This document shows, one piece after another, positions 38,001 to 53,398 of a DNA stretch of 64,000 nt. How positions within the stretch are numbered: the stretch's first letter is position 1; each line of letters opens with the position of its first letter. The DNA is taken from NCBI RefSeq assembly GCF_034044635.1, contig NZ_JAXCLX010000001.1, positions 248,001-312,000 of the forward strand, given 5' to 3'. The notes under the pieces are model-generated. The model was not told the DNA's origin, did no database searches, and saw only the letters and a list, made by a program, of their open reading frames with translations. This DNA comes from Dongia rigui (GTDB taxonomy: Bacteria > Pseudomonadota > Alphaproteobacteria > Dongiales > Dongiaceae). The translations under genes and the position numbers were made by a program.

Positions 38001-38041
38001 GACACTCCGCTCCTCACCGGGCATGATTTTCTCAGACTCCC

Positions 38042-38057: not shown

Positions 38058-38073
38058 GCGCCTAGGCAGGATA

Positions 38074-38088: not shown

Positions 38089-38108
38089 CGCTAAACCATT
38101 GCAAACTG

Positions 38109-38173
38109 GGCAGCTTTTTCCCTTAGGACAATTTCGCCTAGGCAATAATTGCCGAAAGCGGCAGAATTTACCC
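38109..38173 (-). promoter_or_regulatory. Pair of FlbD-type elements upstream of flagellin 2
   Basis: Read on the minus strand, GGGAAAAAGCTGCC (38109-38122) and GGGTAAATTCTGCCG (38159-38173) share the purine/AT core plus CTGCC seen at flgI and fliF. They lie between the divergent sigma-54 promoters at 38042 and 38240 and could activate both. Confidence 0.45.
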
Positions 38174-38239
38174 AGCATACAACTGTTTGGCCCTGCGAAA
38201 AACGGCCAACTCCCTGGACTTTCGGCAAAAATTTCCACT

Positions 38240-38255
38240 TGGCAGGGAAATTGCT
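38240..38255 (+). promoter_or_regulatory. Sigma-54 promoter of flagellin 2
   Basis: TGGCAGGGAAATTGCT: GG-N10-GC spacing with a perfect TTGCT -12 block, 84 bases before the ATG at 38339. Confidence 0.85.
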
Positions 38256-38338
38256 TCCCTGTCTGAGCCGCCTGCATTCTGCCTGCGGCTGTTGGGGCAA
38301 AGCCTCGACATAACGTCGACTCCAAAGGGAGCATTCTT

Positions 38339-40597
38339 ATGGCACAGAACGAAGTCCAGCTTGCCGCTGGCACACGCAGCAACCTCCTGCTGCTGCAAAA
38401 CACGACAACCAAGTTGGAGCGGACCCAGCTCCGCCTGGCGACCGGCAACAAGATCAACTCTGCTCTGGAAGGTCCGGCCCAGTTCTTCGCGGCTAAGGGT
38501 CTCAACCAGCGCGCTGGCGACTTGAACAGCCTCAAAGACGGTATCGGCCAGGCGATCAGCACGATCAAATCGGCAGATACCGGCATCACGAACATTGAAA
38601 AGCTGGTCGAGCAGGCCCGCGGTCTCACCACCCAGGCTCTCGGCTCGTTGGGCACCGACGCGTCGTCCGTGTCGCTGCGTAACAGTCTCGCCAACCAGTA
38701 CAACACCCTGCTTCGCCAGATCGATCGCCTCGCGGCCGACTCAGGCTACCAGGGCAAAAACCTGCTGATTGGCTCGGGTCTTACGATCGATGCAACCTCG
38801 TCGTCCAAGGCGGCGGTCAATGCCCTCTCAGGCATCGGCAATGCCATCACGACCAACGTCGTTTCGGCCGACAAATACAAGATCGCTGTTACAGGTGATG
38901 GTGCGATCTCCGGCTCCAGCGCCGATATCGCCCGGGCACAGACCGATCGTGGCATCTCGAACCTCGAGATCAACGGTTTTGCTTCTACGACCAATGCCAA
39001 CTACGACTCCGTTATCGTCAAGCTGTCTGGCGGTACCGGCAAGGACAAGACCTTCACCGTGTCGGAAGGCGATCAGACGGTTACCCAGACCTTCACCAAT
39101 TTGGATTGGCAGATCGCCAAATCCAATGGTGTCGATCTGCGCTTCTCGACCAAGTTCACCAGCGGCACCGTGGTCAGCTTCAACATCGATTTCGAAGCCA
39201 TTGAGGACGTCCCGGATACCGCCGGCGTCGGCACCTCGGTGATCGAAAAGAATGTCAACCTGCAGCTGCAAGTGACCAACCAGAACGGTGAAATTATCAC
39301 GCGTGACGGGCTCAATCTGCTCGGTCAGGGAAAGCTGGCGAATGGTGAAAACGCCTTCGCCTTCGATTCCGGCACGGCCCGCCTCACCGTCGACGAGCGC
39401 CAGTTGCTGCAATCGTCGAAGTACAACGCTGCCGTGGGCGCTGCCTATGGTACTGGCTCGAACGCGATTGCGTCGATCAACATCAACTCCATCACCGCCG
39501 TGTCGGCCGACTATAACGTGTCGATCGCCGTGGTCGGTACGTCCTTCAACTACACCGAGAACAACTTCCAAACCTTCAGCGTCGTGGCTCATGCCGTTGG
39601 CAGTACATCTGCCACCGTCACTGTCGTGGTGTCTGTGGGCGCGACCAACTCGGTCGAGAACAACTTTGCCGCCCTGGTCGACGGTCAAGGTGCCTCGATT
39701 GCCTTCAACTATGGTGAATTGAAGTTCACTGCCTCTGCCGCAGCCGCCGCAGCCAGCGAAGTCAGCACGACCTTGACCGGCGTGGACTTCAGCATCGGGG
39801 CGGTGGCCGTGCACAGCGCCGAGAGCTTTGCCGACAACACGGTGACCAGCGTTAATATCACGATCACCGCGACATCGACCTCGGCGACCTTCCAATACAC
39901 CGACGAGTTCGGTGGGACGGCGTCGAAGACGGTGACGCTCTCTGGCTTCTCCAACGCCGCAGCTATCGCCGTGGCATCGCTGACGTTCAGCGTTCAGGGC
40001 GGTCTCAATAGCGGTGCCGTGTTCGTTCTCTCGCTTTCCGCCAATACGTTGTTCCAAACGACTGGTCAGGAATTGAACTTCAAGGTTCGCGGTGAATTCA
40101 CCGCCGAGCGACCGATCGCCTTCGACGTTCGCAAGGCCAATACCGGCGGAACGGCCGTCCTGTCGACCAAACAGGCAACGGACGCATCGGATGCCAACAA
40201 CCTTGCGGTGCAGCTGAACGAAGCCAACACCAGCAACGTGACGGTCGTCAGTCAGAACGTGCAAACCAACGGACAGGGATTGAGGCTCGACTTCGCCCAG
40301 AACGGATGGAATGACCGATCCGACATCGACAATGCGATCAAGCAGTTGGATGCCGCAAAGCTCTCGCTGCGAGCCGCATCGTCGAACCTCAGTACCAACT
40401 TGAACATCATCCAAACCCGAGAGGACTACACCAAGGAATTCTCGGACGTGCTGACCGAAGGCGCCAGTAAACTGGTTGCCGCCGATCAGAACGAAGAAGG
40501 TGCGAACATCCTGACCCTGCAGACCAGGCAGCAGTTGGGTACGATCTCGCTTTCTCTTGCCAACCAGGCGCAGCAGGCGATCTTGCGATTGTTCTAA
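38339..40597 (+). CDS. Flagellin 2, very large (752 aa)
   Basis: 752 residues; AGGGAG precedes the ATG. N-terminal SNLLLLQNTTTKLERTQLRLATGNKINSALEGPAQFFAAKGLNQRA and C-terminal ANILTLQTRQQLGTISLSLANQAQQAILRLF are standard flagellin ends. The central roughly 490 residues are beta-rich and paralogous to flagellin 1: both carry a GTGKDKTFTVSEGDQTVTQTF-like strand pair, a FNIDFEAIEDVPDTAGVGTSVIEK-like block, and an LTVDERQLLQSS-like block, but diverge strongly at about residues 390-620. This suggests ancient duplication with faster change in the most exposed part. The flbT-flaF genes follow. Confidence 0.93.
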   Translation: MAQNEVQLAAGTRSNLLLLQNTTTKLERTQLRLATGNKINSALEGPAQFFAAKGLNQRAGDLNSLKDGIGQAISTIKSADTGITNIEKLVEQARGLTTQALGSLGTDASSVSLRNSLANQYNTLLRQIDRLAADSGYQGKNLLIGSGLTIDATSSSKAAVNALSGIGNAITTNVVSADKYKIAVTGDGAISGSSADIARAQTDRGISNLEINGFASTTNANYDSVIVKLSGGTGKDKTFTVSEGDQTVTQTFTNLDWQIAKSNGVDLRFSTKFTSGTVVSFNIDFEAIEDVPDTAGVGTSVIEKNVNLQLQVTNQNGEIITRDGLNLLGQGKLANGENAFAFDSGTARLTVDERQLLQSSKYNAAVGAAYGTGSNAIASININSITAVSADYNVSIAVVGTSFNYTENNFQTFSVVAHAVGSTSATVTVVVSVGATNSVENNFAALVDGQGASIAFNYGELKFTASAAAAAASEVSTTLTGVDFSIGAVAVHSAESFADNTVTSVNITITATSTSATFQYTDEFGGTASKTVTLSGFSNAAAIAVASLTFSVQGGLNSGAVFVLSLSANTLFQTTGQELNFKVRGEFTAERPIAFDVRKANTGGTAVLSTKQATDASDANNLAVQLNEANTSNVTVVSQNVQTNGQGLRLDFAQNGWNDRSDIDNAIKQLDAAKLSLRAASSNLSTNLNIIQTREDYTKEFSDVLTEGASKLVAADQNEEGANILTLQTRQQLGTISLSLANQAQQAILRLF

Positions 40598-40618
40598 TCG
40601 TAGGAGCTTGGGTAGGAT

Positions 40619-40643
40619 CGGGCAGCGGCGTCGCCGCTGCCCG
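40619..40643 (+). terminator. GC-rich hairpin after flagellin 2
   Basis: An 11-bp perfect stem CGGGCAGCGGC/GCCGCTGCCCG around GTC, 21 bases after the stop codon. There is no T tract, so it may stabilise the 3' end of flagellin mRNA or reduce read-through into flbT rather than fully terminate. Confidence 0.55.
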
Positions 40644-40739
40644 TCCATCCCAAAGGTTCGATTGACCACCGGAGAGCTACCGGGGGTTTAGGGGAACTAG
40701 GCGCGTTAACGGGTATCCGAGATCTCATGGAGGCCCGCC

Positions 40740-41096
40740 TTGCCGCTCAAATTTACCCTTCGTCCCGGCGAAAAAGTGATCGTTAATGGTGCTGTCATTG
40801 GACGTGGTGAAGAGCCGGGTAGCTTCTATCTCTTTAACAAGGCGAATTTTCTGCGTGGCCGTGAGGTCATGAAAGATGGTGCCGCCGATACGATCGAGAA
40901 GCAGCTCTACCTTATTATCCAGCTTATTTACCTGTTTCCGGAGAACGCGCAGGAAAACCTTGTGAAATTCGAGGCCATCCTAGCGGAAACCATGCGACAC
41001 CGGTCCGACGATCTTGTTGCGCTTACGGAAGTGGCACGCTTGGTGCATAGCGGTGACTACTACCGGGCTCTCAAGGCGACGGCGAAGCTCTTCTAG
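40740..41096 (+). CDS. flbT: Flagellin post-transcriptional regulator FlbT
   Basis: 118 residues beginning at a TTG with GGAGG a few bases upstream; the nearby ATG at 40726 is out of frame. The signature MPLKFTLRPGEKVIVNGAVIGRGEE and KANFLRGREVM, then IQLIYLFPENAQENLVKFE, are typical FlbT. In Caulobacter FlbT binds the flagellin mRNA leader and promotes its decay until the hook is complete. It lies directly after flagellin 2, before flaF. Confidence 0.94.
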   Translation: MPLKFTLRPGEKVIVNGAVIGRGEEPGSFYLFNKANFLRGREVMKDGAADTIEKQLYLIIQLIYLFPENAQENLVKFEAILAETMRHRSDDLVALTEVARLVHSGDYYRALKATAKLF

Positions 41097-41169
41097 GGTA
41101 TAGTGGAAGGCAAAGCAGTCGGCCCTTCCCGCCGAATTAGCGGCTGGATGGCGCCACGGAGGGAATGGA

Positions 41170-41625
41170 ATGAAGCCGGCGACTGGTTACGCAAGTCAAC
41201 CGAGAGCGATGGATCCGCGCAGCACCGAGGCCTGGGCGCTGGCCGAGGCATCCCGTCGTCTCGTCCTTGCCGCCCGAATCACCGACGACAATGGCGAGGC
41301 TCTGCGGACCGCTCTGATCCTCAATCAGCGCTTATGGTCGATCTTCCAGGCCTCGCTCATCGACCCGTCTTGCGAGTTGCCAAAGGACATCAGAGACAAC
41401 GTTCTGGCGCTTTCAATTCTCGTCGATCGGCACTTGATGCAGCGCCTCGGCGATCTCGATGGCAGCAAGATCCAACCGATTCTCGACATCAACCGCTCCA
41501 TTGCCGAAGGACTTTCCGCCCAGCCGGAACGGGCAACCGATGTCGGCGCGGCACCTGCGGCTCCAGCCAATCCCGCGCCAGTGACGGGCAAGAATGCGCA
41601 ACCATTCATGAATTTGACGGCCTGA
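41170..41625 (+). CDS. flaF: Flagellin synthesis regulator FlaF
   Basis: 151 residues with GGAGGG before the ATG. The FlaF core is clear: GYASQPRAMDPRSTEAWALAEASRRLVLAAR, ALILNQRLWSIFQASL, and KDIRDNVLALSILVDRHLM. FlaF promotes flagellin translation or export and opposes FlbT. A Pro/Ala-rich C-terminal extension of about 40 residues is longer than usual. Confidence 0.92.
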   Translation: MKPATGYASQPRAMDPRSTEAWALAEASRRLVLAARITDDNGEALRTALILNQRLWSIFQASLIDPSCELPKDIRDNVLALSILVDRHLMQRLGDLDGSKIQPILDINRSIAEGLSAQPERATDVGAAPAAPANPAPVTGKNAQPFMNLTA

Positions 41626-41652
41626 ACCGGCTCATCTGCGGAGGCGAAGAAT

Positions 41653-42501
41653 ATGGTTGACTATGTCGGTGCAGGGACCAAGGCAGCGAATGCAGAGGCA
41701 GCGGCACTCATTGCCAAGAATGCCGCTATTCTGGCGCAGGCGCGGAAAGACACAGCCAAGGCCATCGAAGACAGCAATGTAAAGCCCGCACCAAATGCCG
41801 CCGATGACCTTGCTGCCATCAACGAACAAGTGAAGGTTCTGGTCGATCAGAAAGAGATCGACGATTCCGGCCGGAAGCAGGAATACCAGAAAAACACCAA
41901 CGACGTTCAGATCGACAACAACATGACGGCGCGGGATATCGGTATCCTGCGTAAGAATGACAGCCGCCTCAATCTGTTCAGTTCGCTGACCGAGGGCGAT
42001 AAGGTTGATGTTTTTAAGTTCCGGGTGACGACGACGGCCAATACCAAGCTCGGCACGCTGGCGGCGGATGAGCAGTCCAAGGAATTGCTGCGCGTTCAGG
42101 TCTTTTCCAAGTCGAGCGGTGCCTTGATTGCAGATCAGGATCCCAAATCCGGCGACGCCTACGAAAATTTCAAAGCACTCCAGGCCGGCACGTTCGAGCT
42201 GGATAAGGGCGATTACCTGGTGCGGGTTTCGCGCCTGCCAGGCCTGGATGTGCGATCGGAAAAGGCGGTCCAGTACGTGATCCAGTTGAGCCAAGGCGTT
42301 TACCGGAATGATTTCGACACTGTCGAGAAAGGTGTTTCGGAAGACCAGGATGCGTTTGGCCAACCGCTGAGCCTCGGTGCCGGTCACGATGCCCTGATGA
42401 GCGGGCTTTCATCGGCATCGAGCTTCATTTCAAGCCTGCCCGCGATCGGCACGTCGGCCACCGACAAGCTGACCGGCGCGATGTACGACGCCTTGTCCTA
42501 A
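41653..42501 (+). CDS. Unknown protein of the flbT-flaF operon with PPC-like beta domain
   Basis: 282 residues with GGAGG and good spacing before the ATG. No family recognised with certainty. The first 90 residues are helical and Ala/Asp/Asn-rich with no signal peptide. About 105-220 read as a beta-sandwich (VDVFKFRVTTTANTKLG, LLRVQVFSKSSGALIADQD, KGDYLVRVSRLPG, AVQYVIQLSQ), resembling bacterial pre-peptidase C-terminal domains. The end is Ser/Gly-rich. It is 27 bases after flaF and 12 before a glycosyltransferase, so a filament-associated or export-linked role is likely by context. A type III exported filament accessory is possible but unproven. Confidence 0.72.
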   Translation: MVDYVGAGTKAANAEAAALIAKNAAILAQARKDTAKAIEDSNVKPAPNAADDLAAINEQVKVLVDQKEIDDSGRKQEYQKNTNDVQIDNNMTARDIGILRKNDSRLNLFSSLTEGDKVDVFKFRVTTTANTKLGTLAADEQSKELLRVQVFSKSSGALIADQDPKSGDAYENFKALQAGTFELDKGDYLVRVSRLPGLDVRSEKAVQYVIQLSQGVYRNDFDTVEKGVSEDQDAFGQPLSLGAGHDALMSGLSSASSFISSLPAIGTSATDKLTGAMYDALS

Positions 42502-42513
42502 CTGGAAAGAACG

Positions 42514-43239
42514 ATGTCCGGCCAAACCTACGAACAGCCACTGCGCATCTTCATCGGCTACGATCACCGTCAAGCTGTTTCCTATAACGTCCTTCAATTC
42601 AGCATTTTGCGCCGCTGCTCAAAGCCCGTCGCAATCACGCCCCTGGTGCTGCCCACCTTGCCGATGACCCGTCAGGGGCTGACCCCCTTCACCTTCAGTC
42701 GGTTCTTGACTCCCTGGTTGTCCGGCTACCAGGGTTGGTCAATGTTCATGGACACAGACTATCTTTGCCTTGCGGATCTCGCCGAGCTCTTTGCCCTGTG
42801 CGACGACCGGTATGCAGCGATGGTGTCGAAGAATGTGAAGAAGTTCGAATGGGCGTCGATGATCATGTTCAATTGCGGTCATCCGGCCAACCGGATCCTG
42901 ACCCCCGACTATGTCGAAGACCCCAAACAGGCCCGGGCGCCGCACGGGCTGGACTGGCTGCCAGATCAATTGGTCGGCGACCTTCCGCGAGAATGGAACC
43001 ATCTGGTCGGTTACGACAAACCCCGCACAGACGCCAAACTCGTGCATTACACTCAGGGCATGCCGGTGTTCGAGGAAACTCAGGGCAGCGAATACACCCA
43101 GGAATGGCTGGCCGAGCATCAGGCCTCCAATCAGACGCAGAGCTGGCAGGACCTGATGGCACGCTCGGTTCACTCGGCAAAGACCGCATCCGGCCGGCGC
43201 GTCGCCAAGCTTCACAAAGAAGCAATTCTTCAGCCCTGA
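42514..43239 (+). CDS. GT8-like glycosyltransferase
   Basis: 241 residues. Start IFIGYDHRQAVSYNVLQFSI is typical of a family of nucleotide-sugar transferases whose DXD motif here is Asp80-Thr-Asp82 in GWSMFMDTDYLC, followed by a FNCGHP-like segment. The pattern places it near GT8-type retaining enzymes. It ends the flbT-flaF unit and may decorate flagellin or a surface glycan (inference). Confidence 0.82.
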   Translation: MSGQTYEQPLRIFIGYDHRQAVSYNVLQFSILRRCSKPVAITPLVLPTLPMTRQGLTPFTFSRFLTPWLSGYQGWSMFMDTDYLCLADLAELFALCDDRYAAMVSKNVKKFEWASMIMFNCGHPANRILTPDYVEDPKQARAPHGLDWLPDQLVGDLPREWNHLVGYDKPRTDAKLVHYTQGMPVFEETQGSEYTQEWLAEHQASNQTQSWQDLMARSVHSAKTASGRRVAKLHKEAILQP

Positions 43240-43256
43240 CGATCCTTGAGATCCAA

Positions 43257-43287
43257 AAAAAGGCCCGAACAATGTTCGGGCCTTTTT
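43257..43287. terminator. Bidirectional terminator between glycosyltransferase and methyltransferase
   Basis: AAAAAGGCCCGAACA and its complement TGTTCGGGCCTTTTT form a 15-base inverted repeat centred at 43272, with A and T tracts for both strands. Confidence 0.92.
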
Positions 43288-43304
43288 GTTTGATAATCCG
43301 GCGC

Positions 43305-43868
43305 TTAGACCGGCTCGACCAGGATCGGCTTTTCCGGCTTCCGTTCGACCAGCACCCAGAAGCCCTGCGGCATCTTCTGGAAGACGGTGAGATCGAAGCG
43401 CTCCATGAACTTCGGCAACCACCAAGCTGGTCCTTCCTGGATCAGGTGGGCATTGCGGCCATCCGGCAAGACCTTGATCGCCGGCCCGGTATGAACGGTG
43501 AAGAAACCGCGCTTCATTACCAGCCGCTTCAGGTGATCGAGCACGCTGTCCAGATAATCGGGCTCGATATGTTCAAGAACATCGATGCAGCACACGAAGC
43601 CGCACGGTGACGGCTCGGCAGCCCATTCGGGCCGCGCCGGGTCGTAGTGGTGGATATTCAGCGGCGTGCTGATGAGCTGACGAAGGGTCTCGCCCAGCCG
43701 GCCCTTCCCCGCACCGTAGTCCAGAAGCTCGCTGGTCCCGGTCTGCTGCATGATCTTGGCAACGACCGGGGCATATTGCACGGACGCGACGCCGTAATTG
43801 GGGTTCTCGTGCAGTTTTTCCTGCATGCGGCGGTATTCTTCGCTGATCTGTCCACTTGGGGTCGCCAT
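43305..43868 (-). CDS. Class I SAM-dependent methyltransferase
   Basis: 187 residues from the ATG at 43868 (the frame opens further upstream without similarity, and the sigma-54 promoter at 43909-43924 leaves a short leader for this start). SAM-binding motif I is ELLDYGAGKGRLG with Asp50, and CCIDVLEHIEPDYLDSVLDHL gives motif II/III. The substrate is unknown. The EEYRRMQEKLHENPNYGVASVQYAP N-terminus is shared with sugar or lipid methyltransferases of glycan clusters. It is divergent from the FkbM gene with a back-to-back sigma-54 promoter, so it should be expressed with late flagellar genes. Confidence 0.85.
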   Translation of the reverse strand: MATPSGQISEEYRRMQEKLHENPNYGVASVQYAPVVAKIMQQTGTSELLDYGAGKGRLGETLRQLISTPLNIHHYDPARPEWAAEPSPCGFVCCIDVLEHIEPDYLDSVLDHLKRLVMKRGFFTVHTGPAIKVLPDGRNAHLIQEGPAWWLPKFMERFDLTVFQKMPQGFWVLVERKPEKPILVEPV

Positions 43869-43908
43869 GACATCGCTCCATTTCGTGGCTTTGGCCTGCG
43901 CAGATACT

Positions 43909-43924
43909 AGCAGTTTTTGTGCCA
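43909..43924 (-). promoter_or_regulatory. Sigma-54 promoter of class I methyltransferase gene
   Basis: Minus strand TGGCACAAAAACTGCT: TGGCAC block, GG-N10-GC spacing, about 41 bases before the ATG. Confidence 0.75.
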
Positions 43925-43956
43925 CCGCGTCTCGAATGGCGGCTTAACGCCGCGAT

Positions 43957-43972
43957 TGGCACGGATTCTGCT
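43957..43972 (+). promoter_or_regulatory. Sigma-54 promoter of FkbM-oxygenase operon
   Basis: TGGCACGGATTCTGCT: perfect TGGCACG block and GG-N10-GC spacing, 50 bases before the FkbM ATG. Confidence 0.82.
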
Positions 43973-44021
43973 CAACATTCCTGGACATTTCATTAATGGC
44001 CACCTACCGTTGGAGCGGAAA

Positions 44022-44846
44022 ATGTTCCCGATGCGAGCCGATACGGAGCCGAAGGCACAGCATATGCAGATTGATCCGCGTGTCATGGATGCCGTCAAGA
44101 AGTACGAGGCTGGCATGCCGGTCATTGCCGTTCCTTACCGAGGTAGGAAGCTGCGCTACGCCCTGCCGGGGAAGACGCCGTTGTGGCGCGTCCAGACCCT
44201 TTTCACGAAAGAACCATGCACCATCGAGTGGCTTGAATCGATCGAGCCCGGCGCGGTCCTCCTTGATGTTGGAGCGAATGTCGGCATGTATACGGTCTTT
44301 GCCGCCGTCATGCGCGACGCTCGCGTTTTCGCCTTCGAACCGGAATCGCAGAATTACGGCCTGCTGTGCCGCAACTTGGTGGGCAACAACATCTCGGATC
44401 GGGTCAGCGCCTTCTGCTGCGCGCTGTCCGACGAAGCCAAGTTCAGCATGATCCATCTTTCGCAGTTCACGATTGGCGGCTCTTGCCATAGCTTTGACCA
44501 GTCGGTGGATTTCAAGCTGGAGCAACGCGAGTCCCCCTTCATCCAGGGCTGTTTCTCCGCGCGCATCGACCAACTCGTGGCGGATGGCGTGATGCCGGTT
44601 CCTCACTACGTCAAGCTCGATGTCGACGGGTTCGAACACAAGGTCATCGCCGGCGGCATGGAGACTTTGCGCAAGCCTGACGTGCGGTCGTTGATCATTG
44701 AGATCAACCCCCATCTTGCCGAGCATCGCGAGATCATCGATATCCTGGCAGGTCTTGGTTTTCAGTGCGATCCGGCGCAAGTCGCTAAGGCCGCACGTAC
44801 CGAAGGCGCTTTCACTGGAGTGGGCGAGTATGTTTTCCGACGTTAA
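44022..44846 (+). CDS. FkbM family methyltransferase
   Basis: 274 residues from the ATG at 44022 (GGAG upstream). Motif I is LLDVGANVGMYT at residues 80-91, followed by VFAFEPESQNYGLLCRNLVGNN, typical of FkbM enzymes, and KLDVDGFEHKVIAGG near the C-terminus. FkbM enzymes methylate hydroxyl groups of sugars or polyketides. The gene overlaps the following oxygenase by 17 bases and lies behind a sigma-54 promoter, so it likely modifies a late flagellar or surface glycan (inference). Confidence 0.9.
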   Translation: MFPMRADTEPKAQHMQIDPRVMDAVKKYEAGMPVIAVPYRGRKLRYALPGKTPLWRVQTLFTKEPCTIEWLESIEPGAVLLDVGANVGMYTVFAAVMRDARVFAFEPESQNYGLLCRNLVGNNISDRVSAFCCALSDEAKFSMIHLSQFTIGGSCHSFDQSVDFKLEQRESPFIQGCFSARIDQLVADGVMPVPHYVKLDVDGFEHKVIAGGMETLRKPDVRSLIIEINPHLAEHREIIDILAGLGFQCDPAQVAKAARTEGAFTGVGEYVFRR

Positions 44847-45558
44847 ATTTCATCTGATCTATCAGATCGCCAACTGCCAGGTTCGCAACTTTCCGTTCCC
44901 GCACATCTACGTGAAGGACGTCTTCCCGGACGGATTTTACCAGGAATTGCGGCGCAACCTGCCGCCGAACGAGGGTTACATCGCGTTGGTTGACACAAAG
45001 CGCGTTGGCACCGGTTATTCACGGGCGCGCCTGGCGTTGTTCCCATCCGATCTCGACAAAGCCCATATCACGCCGGCACAACGCGATTTCTGGCGCAACG
45101 TCTTCAACACGCTAGGCGACGGTGAATTCGCAGCCTGCGTGTTCGACCGCTTTCGCCCCTGGATCGAACAGCGCTTTAAAACCGATGGAGCCAATCGCGG
45201 TCTCAAAGTGTGGCACGAGACGTTTCTTATGCGTGATCTTGAAACATATTCTTTGGGGCCGCATACGGACGCTGTGGCGAAGCTGGTTTCCATGCTGTTT
45301 TACCTACCGGGTGACGATTCATCGTCCGAGCTCGGCACGGCACTCTATCTGCCCAAGGATCGCAGCTTCACCAGTGAAGGCGGACCGCATCTGGAGTTTG
45401 AGGATTTCGATCACGTCATGTCGGTGCCTTATGCGCCGAATGTCGTGGCCTCTTTTCCGAAGACCAAGGCCTGCTTTCATGGTGTCGAGCCGGTGAAAGG
45501 CCCCAACAAGCAGCGCGACATTCTGTTCTTCGACCTCAAAGGCAAGGTCAGCGAATAG
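44830..45558 (+). CDS. 2-oxoglutarate/Fe(II) oxygenase
   Basis: 242 residues. The facial triad His145-Thr-Asp147 (GPHTDAVAKLVSMLFYLP) and His217 (KACFHGVEPV), with Arg229 as the 2OG carboxylate ligand, match the 2OG-Fe(II) dioxygenase superfamily; the N-terminal PFPHIYVKDVFPDGFYQEL is typical of prolyl-4-hydroxylase-like members. Predicted reaction: hydroxylation of a protein residue or a small molecule using 2OG and oxygen. It is translationally coupled to the FkbM gene (17-base overlap), hinting that one hydroxylates what the other methylates. It overlaps the convergent rfbB by 11 bases. Confidence 0.87.
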   Translation: MFSDVKFHLIYQIANCQVRNFPFPHIYVKDVFPDGFYQELRRNLPPNEGYIALVDTKRVGTGYSRARLALFPSDLDKAHITPAQRDFWRNVFNTLGDGEFAACVFDRFRPWIEQRFKTDGANRGLKVWHETFLMRDLETYSLGPHTDAVAKLVSMLFYLPGDDSSSELGTALYLPKDRSFTSEGGPHLEFEDFDHVMSVPYAPNVVASFPKTKACFHGVEPVKGPNKQRDILFFDLKGKVSE

Positions 45559-46615
45559 CACCGGCGCCGAGGCGTTCCGCGCGGTAGCCGCCGGCGAGTT
45601 TTGCCTGCCACCATGCCTCGTTCGCGACATACCAGGCGATGGTTTGGGCAAGGCCGGAATCGAGATCCGTCGTCTGGCGCCAGCCGATTTCGCGTTCCGT
45701 CTTGCCGGGATCGATGGCGTAGCGCAGATCGTGGCCGGGGCGATCGGTGACGAAGGTGATGAGATCGGCATAGCTGCCGCGGGCTCTTGGCCGCAAGCGG
45801 TCGAGATGTCCGCAGATCGTGCGCACGACGTCGATGTTTCGGCGCTCGCCATGGCCACCGACATTGTACTTCTCGCCGAGCCGGCCCTTTTGCGCGATCG
45901 CCAGCAACGCGGTGACATGGTCATCGACAAAGAGCCAGTCCCGCACGTTCTCGCCCGTGCCGTAGACGGGCAGGTTTTCGCCTTTGAGGGCCCGGATGAT
46001 CATGTGCGGGATCAGCTTTTCGGGAAACTGGTAAGGCCCGTAGTTATTGGAACAATTGCTGACAATGACGGGCAGGCCATAGGTCACTTGCCAGGCCCGC
46101 GCCAGATGATCGGCAGACGCCTTGCTTGCCGCGTATGGTGAATTCGGCCGGTAGGGGCTTTCTTCGGTAAAGCTGCCGGCGGCGCCCAGCGTCCCATAGA
46201 CTTCGTCGGTCGATACATGGATGAAGCGGAAGGCAGTTCTGACATCGGCGCCAAGGCTGCGCCAGTAGTCCAGGGCGGCCCCCAACAGGCGCTGTGTGCC
46301 GACAACATTGGTCTCGATGAACGCATCCGGGCTGTCGATTGAGCGATCGACATGCGTTTCCGCCGCGAGATGGAAGACCCACTCCGGACGGAACCTGGCG
46401 AAGATCTCACCCAATTTCTCACGCGCACAGATATCGGCGACTTCGAGGGCGTAATTCGGCTGCGCGGCGACGTCAGCCAGGGCTGCGAGGTCGGCCGCAT
46501 AGGTCAGCTTGTCGAGATTGAGCACCTCATAGCCGCCGCTCTTCATCAGATGGCGACACAGCGCCGAGCCGATGAAGCCCGCGCCACCCGTCACCAAAAC
46601 ACGCCTGTTGGCCAT
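45548..46615 (-). CDS. rfbB: dTDP-glucose 4,6-dehydratase
   Basis: 355 residues from the ATG at 46615; the frame continues upstream without similarity. The NAD-binding T9-G-G-A-G-F-I-G16, catalytic T136-D137-E138, and Y161-x3-K165 are all present, as are NLDKLTYAADLAAL and VSNCSNNYGPYQFPEKLIP, which mark RfbB/RmlB. It converts dTDP-glucose to dTDP-4-keto-6-deoxyglucose. The other rml genes are absent here, so the sugar made is unclear; supply for flagellin or O-antigen glycosylation is plausible. Confidence 0.93.
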   Translation of the reverse strand: MANRRVLVTGGAGFIGSALCRHLMKSGGYEVLNLDKLTYAADLAALADVAAQPNYALEVADICAREKLGEIFARFRPEWVFHLAAETHVDRSIDSPDAFIETNVVGTQRLLGAALDYWRSLGADVRTAFRFIHVSTDEVYGTLGAAGSFTEESPYRPNSPYAASKASADHLARAWQVTYGLPVIVSNCSNNYGPYQFPEKLIPHMIIRALKGENLPVYGTGENVRDWLFVDDHVTALLAIAQKGRLGEKYNVGGHGERRNIDVVRTICGHLDRLRPRARGSYADLITFVTDRPGHDLRYAIDPGKTEREIGWRQTTDLDSGLAQTIAWYVANEAWWQAKLAGGYRAERLGAGAIR

Positions 46616-46685
46616 GCTTGCTCCCGCTCTTCCCGCCCACTCCGGCACGCGGCAGATGCTACCGCGCCCCTGCAGAAAAGGTGAC

Positions 46686-46697
46686 GCCATTTCTGCC
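46686..46697 (+). promoter_or_regulatory. Putative FlbD-type element upstream of flgE
   Basis: GCCATTTCTGCC, part of a larger inverted repeat (GCAGAAA at 46672-46678 with TTTCTGC at 46690-46696), lies about 65-75 bases upstream of the flgE sigma-54 promoter. Confidence 0.45.
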
Positions 46698-46819: not shown

Positions 46820-49093
46820 ATGAGTATTCTCGGGGCAATGTTTACGGCGGTCAGCGGTGTAAACGCCCAGTCGAAATCCCTCGGCCATATCTCAGACAAC
46901 ATCGCGAACTCACAGACCACCGGCTACAAAAAGGTGGATACGCGCTTCGAAACGCTGATCACCGTTTCGAATGCCAATCTGCATCAGCCGGGCGGTGTCG
47001 TCGCCTCGCCTTCGTATGCCAATTCTCTGCAGGGCAACGTCAACCAGACGCAGACCCTCACCAATATGGCAATCAGTGGCCAGGGGTTCTTCGTCGTCAG
47101 CCGCCCGGAATCACAGACGGCGAACCAGACGCTGTTCAACGACCTGCCCTATTACACCCGCGCTGGCGATTTCGAAGTCAATCGCGACGGATATCTCGTC
47201 AACAACGGTGGTTATTACCTGAACGGCTGGGCGGTTGATGAGCAAACCGGTGTCGCCGATACCTCGACACTGGCGCCGATCCGCATCACCCAGACAATCG
47301 ACGAGCCGACCCCGACGAGCGAACTCGAATTCGTCGGCAACCTGCCGGCATCTTCCAAAGTCAACCCGACGCCCGCCCTGGCACCGACCAATATCAAGGT
47401 CTATGACGCCCTGGGCAACCCCCACACCGTGTCATTGGTCTGGGCCAAGCGCGCTGACAACCTGTGGAAGCTCGATATCGTGGCAGCCGATAGCACGCTG
47501 GACCCGGTTTCGGGTACGCTGGTCGGCGTCAACGACCAGGCGATGGCAGTCGCCAACACGACGGCGAACGTGCCCGCGGTCTCGCAGGTCGATACCATCA
47601 CCCTGCCCTCTGATGGATTGGCTTTCGGCCAGTCATTGACGTTCACGATCGGCTCGAATTCTGTCACTGTCACGGCGCCAGTCGGCGGCTACACACAGTC
47701 CACAGTCGGCTCTGCGCTCATCGCCGCCATCAACGGCAATCCCGGGCTTTCCGCCCAGGTGACAGCCGGCAACCTCACCGCCACAACCTTCGACGTCTCG
47801 GCGGATGTCGGCGGCACCCCCTTCTCGCTGACCCTTGGCGGCAGCGGTTCGGGCCAAACAGATACCGTGACGATCCCAAATACCGGCCTTGCCGCCGGCG
47901 ACACGATCAGCGTCACCATCAACGGCACGCTCATCACCTATACCGCCGTTGGTGTCGAAACCGCGCAGACAGCGCGCGACGGCCTCATTGCCCTCATCAA
48001 CGCCAATGTGACCGTGAACGCTCAGGTCACCGCATCGCCAGGCGCTACGAATACGCTTCTGATCAACGCTGACGCGGCGCAGGGCACCTTCACCAATGCC
48101 GTGTCGGATACGCTGACAGTCGGCGCCCTGACGCTCGGCACCGCGACCGGCGCTTCGTCCGTCAATACGGTGGCGAACGGTCTGCCGACGGCGCAGGTCG
48201 ATACCGTCACCCTCTCCGGCACCGTCGGCCCCGGTGAAATCGGCGATACCTACACCATCAATGTCGGCTCGCAGACGATTTCCTATATCGCCAATGGGAC
48301 CGAGACGAGCCTCAATGACGTTGCCATTGGCATCGCGGCGCTGATAAATGCCAATTCGTCGCTCGGCGTCACCGCAACGGCGCTCGGCAGCACCGTCCAG
48401 CTGACCGCGATCAATGCCGGTACACCGTTCACCTCGACGGTCGCCGCATCGAACGGGTCGACCAACTCGTTCATTGACGTCCAGTTCGGCGCCACGGCAG
48501 CAACTGCCGGTCAGTTGGTGGGCATCAGCAATGCCTACAATATCAATGGCAATGCGGTCACCCCGACGGCACAGAACTCTGGCGCCGACGCCGTTATAAC
48601 TTTCCAGGTCGATTACGGTGTCGGTCCGCAGACGATCGAGCTGAACCTCGGCAAGTTCCAGACGACCGAAGGTGTCACGCAGTTCTCCGGCAACACCATC
48701 GACGTCCGCCGCTTCACCCAGGACGGCGTGCCGCAAGGCATCTTCAAGGATCTCAATATCCGCGACAATGGCGACGTCGAGCTCAACTACGACAACGGCC
48801 GCAGCCGCATCTTCTTCAAGGTGCCGATCGCCCAGTTCTACGACGCCAATACCTTGAAGCGTGAAAGCGGCCAGGCCTTCACCGAAACCTTCGACAGTGG
48901 CTCAGCACGCATGTCGGGAGCGGGCGAAAACGGCGCCGGTACGTTGCGTGGCTCTGCAGTCGAAGGCTCGAACGTCGATATCGCCGAGGAATTCTCGAAG
49001 ATGATCGTCACGCAGCGATCCTACTCGGCCAACACCCGCGTCATCACCACGGCCGACGAGATGCTGCAGGATATCATCAACATCAAGCGTTAA
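46820..49093 (+). CDS. flgE: Flagellar hook protein FlgE, enlarged
   Basis: 757 residues, nearly twice the enteric length (about 400). N-terminal MFTAVSGVNAQSKSLGHISDNIANSQTTGYKKVDTRFETLI and C-terminal GSAVEGSNVDIAEEFSKMIVTQRSYSANTRVITTADEMLQDIINIKR are standard hook ends; LSFVGNLPAS-type and IKVYDALGNPHTVSLVWAK segments mark the hook D1. Residues 254-545 are an insertion of three tandem modules of about 90 residues each, discussed under the repeat entry. The hook is the universal joint between rod and filament; its export stops when FlhB switches. Confidence 0.95.
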   Translation: MSILGAMFTAVSGVNAQSKSLGHISDNIANSQTTGYKKVDTRFETLITVSNANLHQPGGVVASPSYANSLQGNVNQTQTLTNMAISGQGFFVVSRPESQTANQTLFNDLPYYTRAGDFEVNRDGYLVNNGGYYLNGWAVDEQTGVADTSTLAPIRITQTIDEPTPTSELEFVGNLPASSKVNPTPALAPTNIKVYDALGNPHTVSLVWAKRADNLWKLDIVAADSTLDPVSGTLVGVNDQAMAVANTTANVPAVSQVDTITLPSDGLAFGQSLTFTIGSNSVTVTAPVGGYTQSTVGSALIAAINGNPGLSAQVTAGNLTATTFDVSADVGGTPFSLTLGGSGSGQTDTVTIPNTGLAAGDTISVTINGTLITYTAVGVETAQTARDGLIALINANVTVNAQVTASPGATNTLLINADAAQGTFTNAVSDTLTVGALTLGTATGASSVNTVANGLPTAQVDTVTLSGTVGPGEIGDTYTINVGSQTISYIANGTETSLNDVAIGIAALINANSSLGVTATALGSTVQLTAINAGTPFTSTVAASNGSTNSFIDVQFGATAATAGQLVGISNAYNINGNAVTPTAQNSGADAVITFQVDYGVGPQTIELNLGKFQTTEGVTQFSGNTIDVRRFTQDGVPQGIFKDLNIRDNGDVELNYDNGRSRIFFKVPIAQFYDANTLKRESGQAFTETFDSGSARMSGAGENGAGTLRGSAVEGSNVDIAEEFSKMIVTQRSYSANTRVITTADEMLQDIINIKR
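47579..48454 (+). repeat. Three tandem beta modules inside FlgE
   Basis: Residues 254-341, 346-433 and 457-545. Each begins Q-x-D-T-x-T-[IL], then a G-D/Q-x-x-x-[FV]-x-I-x-G strand pair, a variable Ala/Ser/Thr loop with L-x-x-x-I-N-A/G, and ends in a [VL]-T-A...L-T/N-A-x-x-G-T-x-F strand. The same module occurs once in FlgK and five times in FlgL. Alignment was by eye. Confidence 0.75.
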
Positions 49094-49121
49094 GCTGAAT
49101 AGTGAAGTGGGATAGGCAGTC

Positions 49122-50834
49122 ATGTCGCTGACAGGCGCCCTCAACGCAGCCGTCGCCAGTCTTCGGGTCAATCAGGCCAGCATCTCGGTGCTGTCCGCGA
49201 ACATCGCGCATGTGAACGACCCGAACTACACCAAGAAGACGCTCAATCGCGAATCCATCGTGCTGGGTGACTCCCAGGTCGGCAGCGTCGCCGTCGCCGG
49301 CTATTCCACCGCGGTCAGCGAAAACCTGCGCAAGCAGATGGAAACCCTGATCGCCGGCAGCGGTACCAGCGGCGCTCAGAACGAACTGATGTCGCGCGTG
49401 CAGCAGCTGCTGGGCACCAGCACCGACCAGGCGGCACTCCCTAGCCTGCTGTCGCAGTTCACGGCCGCCTGGCAGACATTGCAGGCAACGCCTGAGTCGA
49501 AATCGGCGCAGACAGCGGTCATCCGCTATGGCCAGCAATTGACCGAAGAGGTCAATCGCGTGGCAGCCGGCATCGACTCCCTCGACAGCGAAGTCAAGGA
49601 CGAGACGACCCAATCAGTCGACGCCCTCAATGGCCTGCTGGAACAAGTCTTCGAGCTCAATGTCCGCTTACGTTCGGCAAGCGAGAACGGCGCCGAGCGC
49701 GCCGACCTCATCGATCAACGCGACAATCTGGTGCGCCAGGTCGCCCAATATGTCGATGTGCGAACGGTCGAGCGGGAGAATGGCGCGATCGCATTGTTTA
49801 CGCCCGCCGGCCTCAGCCTGGTTGACGGTCCGCCCTCAAATTTCACCTTCGACGGGACCAACATTTTCCGTGCCGAAGATCCGAAGACGCCGATCGAAAG
49901 CCTCTTCCGGGAAGGAAAAATCCGCGCCCTTGTCGATTTTCGGCTGGACAACAGCTCCAAGGCCGTGCCGGTCAGCACCGATCCGGCGACTGAGGTGCTG
50001 CGCAAGCTCCGCTCCCAGCTCGACCAGGTCGCCAAGGCGATGACATCAACAACCGGGTCGACCTTCAGTTCGGCCTATGATGCCGCGGGTCAATCGCTGC
50101 GGGTGGTGATGAGCTTCCAGACCACCGTCGCCGCCCAGCCCGCGTCTCCGCAATATACGACGGTCGGCCTCACCGGTGACCTGCGCCCAGGTGACGTGTT
50201 CGAGATTGATATCAACGGCCGGACCTTCAGCTATACGGCCCAGGCCAACGACGCAACGTTGGATGCAATCGCTGGAAAGCTTGCGGGTCTTATCAATGGC
50301 GATACGACGCTCGGCGTCACCGCCGTCGCCGGTGCCGGTGCGATCCAGCTTTCCGGAACGGCAAACGACACCCCTTATTCCGTCAAGACGCTTGCCAACG
50401 GGGAGCCGCCGGAACTGAAGAGTGGCTTCTTCATCGGCTCGGACCGCTTTACTTTCGCAGTCAATGAATCCCTGCTCGACGGCACGCAGCAGTTGAAGAA
50501 GAACTCGGCCTCCGATGTCGTGACGGCCCTCAACAGCACGGACCGGACCTTTGTGGCGGCGGGGCTCACCGTCAGCGGCGTCTCCTACAAGGGGATGATG
50601 ATCAACATCGTCGGCACGTCGGTCGCCAATGCCAAGAGCATCGCCGACCAGGCCAAGTTCGATTCCGAAAGCCTTAAGCAAACCGAACAGCGTTATCAGG
50701 CGGATGTCGGCGTCAATCTGGATGAAGAGCTCGCCAATCTCCAGGTCCTGCAGAATGCCTACGCTGCCTCGGCACGCCTGTTGACGGTCGTGCAGCAGCT
50801 GTTCGACACACTGCAAGCCGCAGTTAGCCGGTAG
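49122..50834 (+). CDS. flgK: Hook-filament junction protein FlgK
   Basis: 570 residues. N-terminal LNAAVASLRVNQASISVLSANIAHVNDPNYTKKTLNRES and C-terminal VNLDEELANLQVLQNAYAASARLLTVVQQLFDTLQAAVSR are the HAP1 ends. The middle has FlgK-specific DQRDNLVRQVAQYVDV and IALFTPAG-like segments. Residues 344-424 hold one copy of the module found in FlgE and FlgL. It caps the hook and starts the filament junction; FlgN is its likely chaperone. Confidence 0.93.
   Translation: MSLTGALNAAVASLRVNQASISVLSANIAHVNDPNYTKKTLNRESIVLGDSQVGSVAVAGYSTAVSENLRKQMETLIAGSGTSGAQNELMSRVQQLLGTSTDQAALPSLLSQFTAAWQTLQATPESKSAQTAVIRYGQQLTEEVNRVAAGIDSLDSEVKDETTQSVDALNGLLEQVFELNVRLRSASENGAERADLIDQRDNLVRQVAQYVDVRTVERENGAIALFTPAGLSLVDGPPSNFTFDGTNIFRAEDPKTPIESLFREGKIRALVDFRLDNSSKAVPVSTDPATEVLRKLRSQLDQVAKAMTSTTGSTFSSAYDAAGQSLRVVMSFQTTVAAQPASPQYTTVGLTGDLRPGDVFEIDINGRTFSYTAQANDATLDAIAGKLAGLINGDTTLGVTAVAGAGAIQLSGTANDTPYSVKTLANGEPPELKSGFFIGSDRFTFAVNESLLDGTQQLKKNSASDVVTALNSTDRTFVAAGLTVSGVSYKGMMINIVGTSVANAKSIADQAKFDSESLKQTEQRYQADVGVNLDEELANLQVLQNAYAASARLLTVVQQLFDTLQAAVSR
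50151..50393 (+). repeat. Single copy of the shared beta module in FlgK
   Basis: Residues 344-424: TTVGLTGDLRPGDVFEIDI, YTAQANDATLDAIAGKLAGL, INGDTTLGVTA, IQLSGTANDTPYS follow the module pattern point by point. Confidence 0.75.
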
Positions 50835-50851
50835 CGGCCAAGGAGAATATC

Positions 50852-53398
50852 ATGAGCCTCAACGCCTATAGCTCCTACGCCAACTACCTCAGCAATATCT
50901 CAGGGGTAAAGAACCTGCAGGTTTCGCTGGCGCAGCTGACCCAGCAGCTCAATACCGGCAAGAAGTCGCTCGACCTGACGACATATGGCGTCCAGGGTTC
51001 GCGCCTTCTGGATCTGCGGGCCGATATTCAGCGTCGCGAAGGCTATCTCGATGCGATCAAGGCCGTCACCCCGGACATCAAGGCCTATGACAACGTCTTC
51101 AACAGCATGGAGAAGCTGACGAGCAACATGTACAGCGCCTTCCTTAGCCCGTTGAGCGACCCACCCGTAGCGCAGAAGGACAAGATCGTCCTCGAGGGCG
51201 ATATCAGCGACGTGGGCGACATCTACAAGGTAACGGTCGACGGCAAGCTGTTTTCCTATGTGACCGGCGGGATCGAAGGCAGCCTCGACGACATCGCAGG
51301 GAACCTTGCCAACCAAATCAATGCCGAACCGGGCATGCGCGTAAAGGCGAAGGCCGTCAGTGGCGAGATTACGATTACGTCGATCGAAGTCGGCGCCACC
51401 TACAACGTTACGGCAAGCGTCACCAATGTCGCCGGTGGTGCCGAGAACAAGGTGACGACCACGCAGCTCCAGCAGGGCAAGGTCTCCCCCATCGTCGGGC
51501 AGATCGACAGCTCCCTCAGCCAGCTGCAATCGCTGCTGAATGAACAGATCAATGATCGGTTTCTTTTCGGTGGCTTGACGGCCAATGACAAGCTGCCGGT
51601 GGTCGATCTTCACAAGCTCCCGGATCCGAGCGGCAGTGCCAACGCCATCACGTCCTCGACCGTACAGCAATTGGCAACAGGGACGACGGTACAGAAGGTG
51701 CGCGTTTCAACCGACTATCTCGGTGCGCTGCAGACCGAGACCTTCACCATCAACGCCCAGGCCTTCACCTTCACCGGCCCGTTGACTGCCCAGGAACTGG
51801 CCGACCAGTTGCGGACCGCCATCAACGGGTCGGTGCCCCTGACAGGCGTCGTCACGGTCAGCGATGTCGACGCCAATGGACTGACCATCACGGCGACGAC
51901 CCCCGGCACTGCCTTCAGCGCGGTCATCACGGGTACCGATCCGACACCGGCAACCGTTGCAACCGTGCAGCCCAATGTCCCGATCGGCGCGTCCCAGGTC
52001 GATACCCTGCAGCTTTCAGGTCCGGTCGGCACAATCAACGAGATCTTCAGCGTGACGATCATGGATCCGCCGAACAACACGTTACCGGTGACCATCTCGT
52101 ACCAGACCACGGGCGACGAAAAGAGCCTTGACGATATCGTCACCAAGCTGGTCGACAAGATCAACTCGTACCAGCCGCCATTCACGGTCACTGTCACCGC
52201 GCCAGGCAACGGCCGGATTCAGTTGAGCTCGACGACCGCCTTCGAATCTCATGGCGGCGTGCAAAGCCAACCGACCATCGCCACGACCCAGCGCACCGTC
52301 GTACCGGTCGCCCAGAAAGACGAAGTGACCTTCCCCGGCCCGTTCGGCGATGCCGGCGACGTCTATACCATGAACTTTACCGCCCCAGTCGCCGGCGGCC
52401 CGTTCACCGTGACAACGACCTCGGTCGATGATGCGCAATCGGTGGCCCAGAAATTTGCGGGCCTGATCAATGCCGCCGGCCTCGGTGTCACGGCAGCCAT
52501 CAAGGGCAGCAAACTGGTCCTCAGCTCCGACACGCCCGGCACCGCCTTTACCTATACCGCGGTCCTCACGACAGATGTCGGGCAGGTGACCGCGGCGCCA
52601 TCGACGGCCACCACAATCGCCAACATTCCGGCCGGTCCGTTGCCGCAGATCGATACGGTGAGCCTCTCCGGCCCCGTCGGTCGCAAGGGGGACGCTTATG
52701 AATTGACTGTCGGTGGCCGCACCGTGCGCTATCTGACGACCGGCGCCGAACGCGACATGGACGCGATCGCCATCAATCTGGTGGCGCTGGTCAACGCGGC
52801 CGTCCCGGCCATGTCGGTAACAGCCAATGCCGGCGCAACCGGCACCGGCAGCTTCACGCTGACGTCGAATACGCCAGGCGTCGTCCTCGACACTGCGCTG
52901 AAGGTGGTCCAGCCCACCGTGGTCACGGATCCGGTCGCCCCCATCTACAACGAGCACCAGGAGCCGAACGATTCAGCCAATGCCTGGCAGCGCGGTAAGA
53001 TCACAGTTGCAGACCAATTGACGCTGCGCAGCACGTTCTCGGCCAACGAGGCCGCGTTCCAGAAGCTGCAGCTGGCATTGCGCTATGCCCAATCCGCCGT
53101 GAACGACCTCGATCACTACCAGGAAAAGATCGATGTCGCTCGGCAACTGGCAAACGATGCACTTACCGGTATTCGCGCACTGCACGCCGACAATACCGTG
53201 AACGACGCCGTCATTACGGCGACCTCATTGTCGCACCAGACGTCGATCAATCTTTATACCGACGGCACCGAACAAATCGAGGGTGTCGACAAGAACGAGG
53301 TCGCGGCAAAGCTGGATGTGGCCCAAACCCAGTTGCAGGCAATCTTTGCGGTGATGGGCACGACCAGTCAGATCTCGCTCGTGAACTTTCTGGCCTGA
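50852..53398 (+). CDS. flgL: Hook-filament junction protein FlgL, greatly enlarged
   Basis: 848 residues, against about 300-330 for enteric FlgL. Flagellin-like N-terminus (NYLSNISGVKNLQVSLAQLTQQLNTGKKSLDLTTYG, RREGYLDAIKAV) and C-terminus (LVNFLA after a coiled coil) are intact, and VGQIDSSLSQLQSLLNEQINDRFLFGG matches the FlgL ring-forming stretch. One module (105-195) interrupts the N-terminal helical hairpin, and four more (279-688) replace the usual small outer domain. The protein should project strongly from the hook-filament junction. Confidence 0.92.
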   Translation: MSLNAYSSYANYLSNISGVKNLQVSLAQLTQQLNTGKKSLDLTTYGVQGSRLLDLRADIQRREGYLDAIKAVTPDIKAYDNVFNSMEKLTSNMYSAFLSPLSDPPVAQKDKIVLEGDISDVGDIYKVTVDGKLFSYVTGGIEGSLDDIAGNLANQINAEPGMRVKAKAVSGEITITSIEVGATYNVTASVTNVAGGAENKVTTTQLQQGKVSPIVGQIDSSLSQLQSLLNEQINDRFLFGGLTANDKLPVVDLHKLPDPSGSANAITSSTVQQLATGTTVQKVRVSTDYLGALQTETFTINAQAFTFTGPLTAQELADQLRTAINGSVPLTGVVTVSDVDANGLTITATTPGTAFSAVITGTDPTPATVATVQPNVPIGASQVDTLQLSGPVGTINEIFSVTIMDPPNNTLPVTISYQTTGDEKSLDDIVTKLVDKINSYQPPFTVTVTAPGNGRIQLSSTTAFESHGGVQSQPTIATTQRTVVPVAQKDEVTFPGPFGDAGDVYTMNFTAPVAGGPFTVTTTSVDDAQSVAQKFAGLINAAGLGVTAAIKGSKLVLSSDTPGTAFTYTAVLTTDVGQVTAAPSTATTIANIPAGPLPQIDTVSLSGPVGRKGDAYELTVGGRTVRYLTTGAERDMDAIAINLVALVNAAVPAMSVTANAGATGTGSFTLTSNTPGVVLDTALKVVQPTVVTDPVAPIYNEHQEPNDSANAWQRGKITVADQLTLRSTFSANEAAFQKLQLALRYAQSAVNDLDHYQEKIDVARQLANDALTGIRALHADNTVNDAVITATSLSHQTSINLYTDGTEQIEGVDKNEVAAKLDVAQTQLQAIFAVMGTTSQISLVNFLA
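51164..52915 (+). repeat. Five beta modules inside FlgL
   Basis: Residues 105-195, 279-365, 380-480, 485-575 and 598-688. The starts V-A-Q-K-D, T-V-Q-K-V, S-Q-V-D-T, V-A-Q-K-D and P-Q-I-D-T show the repeat, each followed by the same D/G-x-x-x-x-V strand, G-x-E-x-S-L-D-D-I-A-like helix and V-T-A...L-x-S-x-T-P-G-T-x-F end. Copies 1 and 4 and copies 3 and 5 are most alike. Confidence 0.78.

Follow-up and report, generated by a model that had tools for sequence, protein, structure and literature searches.

A flagellin-type outer domain repeated in the hook and junction proteins of Dongia rigui

Nine copies of one module in FlgE, FlgK and FlgL

The genes discussed here lie in a stretch of 64,000 nucleotides from the alphaproteobacterium Dongia rigui (contig NZ_JAXCLX010000001.1, positions 248,001 to 312,000; hereafter the window), which carries a flagellar cluster in the order flgE, flgK, flgL, then fliK and flgD. 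The hook protein FlgE (46820..49093, + strand; 757 amino acids, aa) matches Pfam Flg_bbr_C (8e-18), FlgE/F/G D1 and FlgE_D2, and the first junction protein FlgK (49122..50834, + strand; 570 aa) matches TIGR02492 (8.2e-67) and FlgK_D1 (8.4e-39). The second junction protein FlgL (50852..53398, + strand; 848 aa) is recognized by PRK06008 (2e-16), TIGR02550 (5.5e-9) and alignment with a 318-aa orthologue. In a test with core profiles, FlgK scored above its NCBIfam cut-off and FlgE above that of the FlgEFG subfamily; the FlgL profiles were significant (5.5e-9 to 2e-16) yet below their curated cut-offs, and the gene order with fliK and flgD agrees with the three assignments.

A module of about 90 residues occurs nine times in these proteins, three times in FlgE, once in FlgK and five times in FlgL (3+1+5). 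This is the arrangement that an original prediction had drawn by eye from the sequence, together with the enlarged lengths of FlgE and FlgL given above, and profile searches confirm it, with shuffled proteins scoring far lower. All copies are on the + strand. Those of FlgE are E1 (residues 254-345, 47579..47854), found by single-copy and profile searches, E2 (344-434, 47849..48121), the least conserved slot, and E3 (457-547, 48188..48460), which was also modeled alone. The FlgK copy (K) spans residues 342-429 (50145..50408). FlgL carries L1 (106-194, 51167..51433), which lies between two N-terminal helices, L2 (277-365, 51680..51946), which groups with E1 and E2 (see below), L3 (380-474, 51989..52273), seen in the FlgL model and in profile searches, L4 (486-576, 52307..52579), to which the Flagellin_IN (Pfam) match of the window belongs, and L5 (597-689, 52640..52918), seen in the FlgL model and in single-copy and profile searches.

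The computed consensus of the nine copies, xxQxDTVxLxG...GD...TIxG....YT.GxE......A..L..LINA...LxVTATA...L....GTxF, agrees with the motif that had been proposed by eye. Its sole invariant column is the N of an I-N-A turn, preceded by I in eight copies and by V in one. This agrees with the conserved I-N in the middle of the Flagellin_IN (PF07196) motif. A profile of the nine copies recovers them from the whole genome at E ≤ 5.3e-23, and no further match in that genome falls below E 0.37.

Single-copy queries were run against all window frames of at least 60 aa. Query E3 found L1 (1.7e-11), L5 (9e-11) and FlgK (2e-10), and L2 found FlgE weakly (6.5e-4) and did not match FlgK. Profiles that leave out the proteins to be found were then built from the copies of one protein in ten genomes (30 for FlgE, 50 for FlgL, 10 for FlgK). 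The FlgE-only profile detected all five FlgL copies at 23.5-45.0 bits and the FlgK copy at 46.4; the FlgL-only profile detected all three FlgE copies at 18.1-56.8 bits and FlgK at 46.6; the FlgK-only profile detected four of the five FlgL and two of the three FlgE copies, the two exceptions being L2 and E1. Among 600 shuffled proteins for each profile, the top scores were 6.3 (FlgE), 6.9 (FlgL) and 10.4 bits (FlgK), and at the boundaries of the copies the cross-protein scores were 16.9-56.8 bits vs. at most 10.4 in the shuffles. The nine copies are homologous to one another. Absence of cross-protein profile similarity had been named beforehand as the outcome that would speak against a shared module; similarity was found, which rules out unrelated inserts in the three proteins.

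Apart from L1, the insertions sit at D2 positions of the chains. In FlgE, the three copies belong to a single insertion, at about residues 235-580, within one D2 loop, as comparison with five shorter hook proteins (414-523 aa) shows; extra domains are likewise inserted in FlgE D2 in Campylobacter. In the 331-residue FlgE insert (window 47537-48529), Ser and Thr make up 26%, and Lys/Arg occurs about once. The FlgK copy follows the D1 domain and is absent as one block from the 463-aa FlgK of a flagellated family mate (G011), which aligns with residues 2-323 and 430-565 only of the window protein. FlgL of the same genome (the 318-aa orthologue) has neither L1 nor the L2-L5 block, and its hook-protein frame has 456 aa. 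In that alignment, copies 2-5 of FlgL occupy the D2 position. As had been proposed, L1 breaks into the helical region at the N terminus: in the FlgL model it is flanked by predicted helices 49-98 and 213-229.

Two large flagellin genes lie upstream of flgE, of 761 aa (30910-33195) and 752 aa (38339-40597). As the original prediction had it, no copy is found in their products: they gave no match to module, sheath or FliC/FliD profiles, and comparison with the module by hhalign yielded a probability of 2.1 (E 0.022), which rules them out as carriers at the sequence level. Elsewhere, a 669-aa flagellin in a metagenome-assembled genome of Alphaproteobacteria (L154:778-2784) has one strong module copy (68.8 bits). 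The region from the first window flagellin gene to the hook gene (33342-46690) encodes tetratricopeptide repeat (TPR) proteins, an FkbM methyltransferase and a sugar-nucleotide dehydratase, suggesting flagellar glycosylation. A scan for promoters and terminators gave counts no higher than in shuffles.

Kinship with flagellin, FliD and phage sheath domains

The links of the module to known families were examined with an alignment of 65 copies that scored above 38 bits in ten chosen sources, weaker copies being left out. Nine of the 65 sequences match Pfam Flagellin_IN at E ≤ 1 (best 2.3e-6). The cut-off of this family is 22.7 bits; the whole FlgL scores 18.8, and L4 scores 22.3 in the genome scan and 23.4 when counted with its neighbors. 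Whole FlgE and FlgK have no match to PF07196 at E ≤ 1. A profile of six FliC/FliD copies, one of them from FliD, gave 11.7-30.6 bits for the nine window copies, every one above the best shuffle (9.1).

A second link leads to contractile tail sheaths. PHROG 165 (tail sheath) is matched by 28 of the 65 sequences (best 9.7e-11) at profile positions of about 102-184, the inserted region, so the module does match the inserted domain of sheaths at the level of sequence. With a profile of ten sheath copies, the score was 26.0 bits for E3, 13.1-14.9 for three FlgL copies and 13.2 for FlgK (best of 900 shuffles 8.9), with none of E1, E2, L2 and L3 above 5 bits. Conversely, a Dongia-only profile was run on ten sheath proteins and scored each of them at 16.0-28.2 bits, where the best of 600 shuffles had 9.3. 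The sheath and FliC/FliD copies had themselves been collected with the module profile, so that their selection was not blind and the shuffles control for composition only. The likeness to Mu-like sheath proteins (PHROG 165; near Phage_sheath_domII, PF17481) is confined to the inserted domain: FlgE, FlgK and FlgL have no sheath core domain (PF04984 or PF17482) at E ≤ 1, whereas sheath core domains are present in the sheath loci L047 and L170. L047:6518-8014 is a tail sheath gene with a related domain in the family mate G012; its product had matches in 192 phage records, in 183 cases covering 80% or more of its length, and many of the 15 listed carry a tail sheath annotation.

A sequence search of solved chains gave protein gp76 (9zdk_S, 1.1e-7) as the best match, followed by the sheaths 9hz7_L (1.4e-4) and 8fop_T (8.5e-4). 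The designed proteins OR327 (3.3e-4) and Top7 (0.0047-0.0055) and ribosomal protein L6 (from 9.4e-4) stood between or below the sheaths, and matches near 1e-3 in this search are therefore not trusted. Both sheaths come from phages of Agrobacterium, 7-7-1 and Milano, whose infection depends on rotating flagella; their appearance is perhaps an accident of sampling, as the Mu sheath matches too.

The fold of the module is predicted to be β-β-β-α-β-β-β. A model of E3, built from the 65-sequence alignment, has this order of elements with a mean predicted local distance difference test (pLDDT) score of 93.9. A model of FlgL from 10 sequences (pLDDT 66.2, higher inside the modules; predicted template modeling score, pTM, 0.35) gives the same order for all five copies. 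In VIA-align comparisons the module resembled the sheath of cyanophage A-1(L) (Z 10.9), the P-SCSP1u portal-tail protein (10.4), the PhiTE tail (10.0), residues 101-201 of the phage Mu sheath (9.6) and the T7 tail complex (9.2). The outer domains of flagellins from Pseudomonas aeruginosa (FliC 4nx9, residues 171-266; Z 9.0, 85 aligned residues, root-mean-square deviation 2.3) and Stenotrophomonas maltophilia (Z 8.4) have the same fold. FliD chains scored 5.1-6.7, under 8, a range in which common arrangements score too. The lytic polysaccharide monooxygenase (LPMO) domain of GbpA (Z 9.8), CbpD (9.2) and CTLA-4 (4.6) also matched. Because LPMO-type domains score equally high, the fold alone is no proof of kinship, and it was set aside as a sole argument for homology. 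Foldseek with the module model found six matches in BFVD and none in the PDB at E ≤ 0.001 (best 2.5e-3). No FlgE chain, such as one with D3/D4 of C. jejuni, was among the best 50 rows of the structural comparison, which is no test of absence.

The module is thus no new domain; it is a known kind of outer domain, shared by flagellin and phage sheaths and probably by FliD. What appears to be new is that one homologous module is repeated in three adjacent genes for axial proteins. Flagellin is said to "somewhat resemble" sheath proteins, with a core built of both chain ends (PMC9230969; this and the other papers given by PMC number are cited for the parts of their text that were available). The literature on Flagellin_IN, giant flagellins, extra domains of FlgE and FlgL, sheath-flagellin kinship and outer domains common to several proteins, as far as it was covered (subscription papers mostly fall outside), describes neither a single module common to FlgE, FlgK and FlgL nor a sequence link of a flagellar module to phage sheaths; for the polar flagellum of Dongia, the same coverage gave a taxonomic paper.

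Distribution, a second flagellar system and the history of the copies

A module match was found in 12 of the 61 genomes searched, and ten of the 12, D. rigui included, have the 3+1+5 layout; all ten belong to the Dongia group. The flagellated family mates G007, G008, G010, G011 and G014 gave no module match, and in the genus mates G002 and G004 neither FlgK nor FlgE was found. Wider scans gave matches in at least 30 of 387 genomes of the class and at least 25 of 397 of the phylum, both being lower bounds since at most 13 candidates were scored per genome. Judged by Pfam domains or protein ends, the class scan yielded additional FlgE proteins as well as flagellins, a single FliD, phage sheaths and a small number of other proteins. 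One locus (L166:4-3261) is a frame for a cadherin-repeat protein (1786 aa in its genome) with two module copies.

Named flagellar loci were compared separately. Eighty were found with FlgK, and 41 were kept in which all three genes were within the limits of length and E-value. The layout is 3+1+5 in nine of them; 14 have 4-6 copies in FlgE, none in FlgK and two in FlgL (13 titled Azospirillum, one Roseomonas genomospecies 6; hereafter Azospirillum-type), 17 have none, and one has a single FlgL copy. Modules therefore occur in both FlgE and FlgL in 23 loci, in FlgL alone in one, in FlgE alone in none and in neither in 17, although the 23 represent only two lineages. Protein lengths over the 41 loci are correlated between FlgE and FlgL (rho 0.67) and not in the same way between FlgE and FlgK (-0.37) or FlgK and FlgL (-0.05), contradicting a rule by which all three axial proteins scale together. 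Coordinated growth of the three proteins, as originally proposed, thus holds in part: FlgE and FlgL gained modules jointly, while FlgK has no copy in any of the 14 Azospirillum-type loci. Given this absence and the negative FlgE-FlgK correlation, joint growth of all three is limited to the Dongia group. In loci L111, L114, L115 and L118, FlgK frames of 904-913 aa contain no detected module and are another kind of enlarged junction protein.

The genome of D. rigui also encodes a second, compact flagellar system (L006, G000:C1:452000-470000) with its own FlgE (424 aa), FlgK (576 aa), FlgL (301 aa), flagellin (275 aa) and FliD (595 aa), a gene set that resembles the rpoE6/fliC2 cluster of Azospirillum brasilense (PMC12826043). 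The nine-copy profile finds no copy in this system (nothing below E 0.37), which excludes it as a carrier of the module's version; two of its frames, FliD and FlgK, do have matches to PF07196 as such. FliD_C is present in G000, G001 and G003, all of which have the second system. It was found in none of the seven module-bearing genomes with a single FlgK (G005, G006, G009, G012, G013, G015 and G016, one of them 68% complete), and a Caulobacter control genome likewise gave no match. From the seven genomes, it seems that the module-bearing flagellum probably lacks a recognizable FliD cap.

Each copy has largely kept its place. When the window copies were compared with other genomes, 79 of 81 best matches were to the same slot, and both exceptions concern E2. 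A careful tree was computed from 78 of 94 copies in a 95-column alignment, leaving out flagellin, FliD, other and six sheath copies. A branch with support values of 98/98 unites E1 and E2 of FlgE with L2 of FlgL, and the four sheath copies included form a separate branch. Constrained trees that kept all FlgE copies together (p 0.035) or all FlgL copies together (p 0.046) were rejected; these tests followed the inspection of a quick tree, and the p values are marginal. The quick tree of all 94 copies, less trustworthy than the careful one, also has mixed groups. Copying between the neighboring flgE and flgL genes, in one direction or the other, is likely on this evidence. An origin of the module from phage sheaths is not supported, the placement of the sheath branch being unsure.

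A putative outer layer on hook and junction

We favor, with some confidence, the reading that an outer domain of known kind was multiplied in flgE, flgK and flgL and gives hook and junction an added outer layer, making them thicker and bracing them. A module of the flagellin-D2/FliD (Flagellin_IN) kind would have been multiplied in these genes in the Dongia group, mostly inserted in the loops that connect outer domains to the conserved core. The hook and both junction rings would thereby gain a layer outside the conserved tube, and FlgE, FlgK and FlgL probably share it. Neighboring modules probably touch, because every layer bears the same domain. The resulting sleeve may widen and brace hook and junction, the parts by which a filament of large flagellins (752-761 aa) is driven. 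We infer that the modules would be exposed at the surface and in mutual contact, and that the diameter would be greater and the layer of mechanical benefit. D2 of FlgK and FlgL is exposed in the Salmonella junction (PMC12221982), and insertions in FlgE have been tied to hooks of variable diameter (PMC5069557). The bracing role is suggested by P. aeruginosa PAO1, where a network of flagellin outer domains stabilizes the flagella and is needed for motility in viscous media (PMC10256154); a P. aeruginosa flagellin has the fold of the module.

Among the functions first suggested for the module, which were adhesion, a thicker hook and filament bundling, a thicker hook appears the likeliest, given the precedent in Campylobacter. 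There, FlgE is enlarged within D2 and FlgL is very large (PMC5691160; PMC5069557), and the larger hook is accompanied by a changed FlgK and by FlgL of 750-950 residues (PMC5691160). Campylobacter FlgK differs in having a changed D2 and no third domain, and the available text of these papers does not describe a shared repeated module. At the junction of Xanthomonas and Burkholderia, one outer fold is found in both FlgK and FlgL, for whose D2 domains quasi-homotypic contacts have been proposed; those D2 domains differ in being two-sheet β-sandwiches, one per protein, without a counterpart in FlgE (PMC6155364). In giant flagellins with thick filaments, the outer part of an axial protein is likewise enlarged (PMC6248924), but the window flagellins, at 752 and 761 aa, are below the >1000 aa of a giant flagellin system, and here the hook and junction proteins are enlarged too. 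Flagellin shares with the module the fold, the central I-N and profile links, and FliD has profile links and fold scores in the range of common arrangements; the module here differs in sitting in FlgE, FlgK and FlgL as 3+1+5. Outer domains have usually been described protein by protein, whereas here one domain recurs in three consecutive parts of a flagellum, in fixed numbers for each. The second system, which has no module, offers a natural comparison for the function of an outer layer on hook and junction, and for the question of whether matching layers need a common domain to fit.

Several observations weigh against a bracing sleeve. Salmonella FlgE carrying D3-D4 of C. jejuni gave motile cells that swam more poorly than the wild type, and D3 alone gave no flagella (PMC5069557). 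In the Salmonella junction, D1 helices other than those of FlgE are buried (PMC12221982); L1, situated among D1 helices, is an odd copy for this reason. The FlgL model has low confidence as a whole and does not fix how its modules are placed relative to one another, and the fold is a common one, as the LPMO and CTLA-4 matches show. With a single copy in FlgK and none in Azospirillum-type loci, the layer need not be continuous, and since the window flagellins have no detectable copy, the sleeve would not extend in kind onto the filament.

A broader proposal is that one outer-surface cassette circulates among extracellular helical tubes (hook, junctions, flagellin, cap and contractile sheaths), was copied in the Dongia group from flgE to flgL or the reverse, and forms a homotypic sleeve, like modules meeting from hook to FlgK to FlgL, with copy numbers tuned to each layer. 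We regard this proposal as tentative. The link to the inserted domain of sheaths suggests that helical tubes are decorated from one common pool of domains.

Another reading takes the copies for padding under weak or no selection, easily duplicated where outer loops tolerate insertion and with no role of their own; it seems unlikely to us. The variable numbers in Azospirillum-type loci (4 to 6 in FlgE, 0 in FlgK), the poor conservation of E2 and the hyper-variable part known in FlgE (PMC5069557) would fit this explanation. The layout is nonetheless constant in all ten module-bearing genomes of the Dongia group, and together with the same-slot matches this suggests that the copies have been kept.

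Still less probable is a mainly adhesive or sugar-binding function, with hook and junction sticking to surfaces or to other flagella and thickening as a side effect. The fold does occur in domains of the chitin-active GbpA and of CbpD, and the module in a large cadherin-repeat protein, but hook and junction are a small share of the surface of a flagellum, and the flagellins show no copy. The modules might finally serve to carry post-translational modification, such as glycosylation of Thr-rich inserts, which we consider very improbable: the Ser+Thr-rich FlgE insert with its scarcity of Lys/Arg, the genes between the flagellin and flgE (for a TPR protein with a glycosyltransferase-9 match, the FkbM methyltransferase and the dehydratase) and the reported glycosylation of the polar flagellin of A. 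brasilense (PMC12826043) are in keeping with it, but these genes may act only on flagellin or on surface polysaccharide, and the Ser+Thr content of the FlgK insert equals that of its core (0.18 and 0.18).

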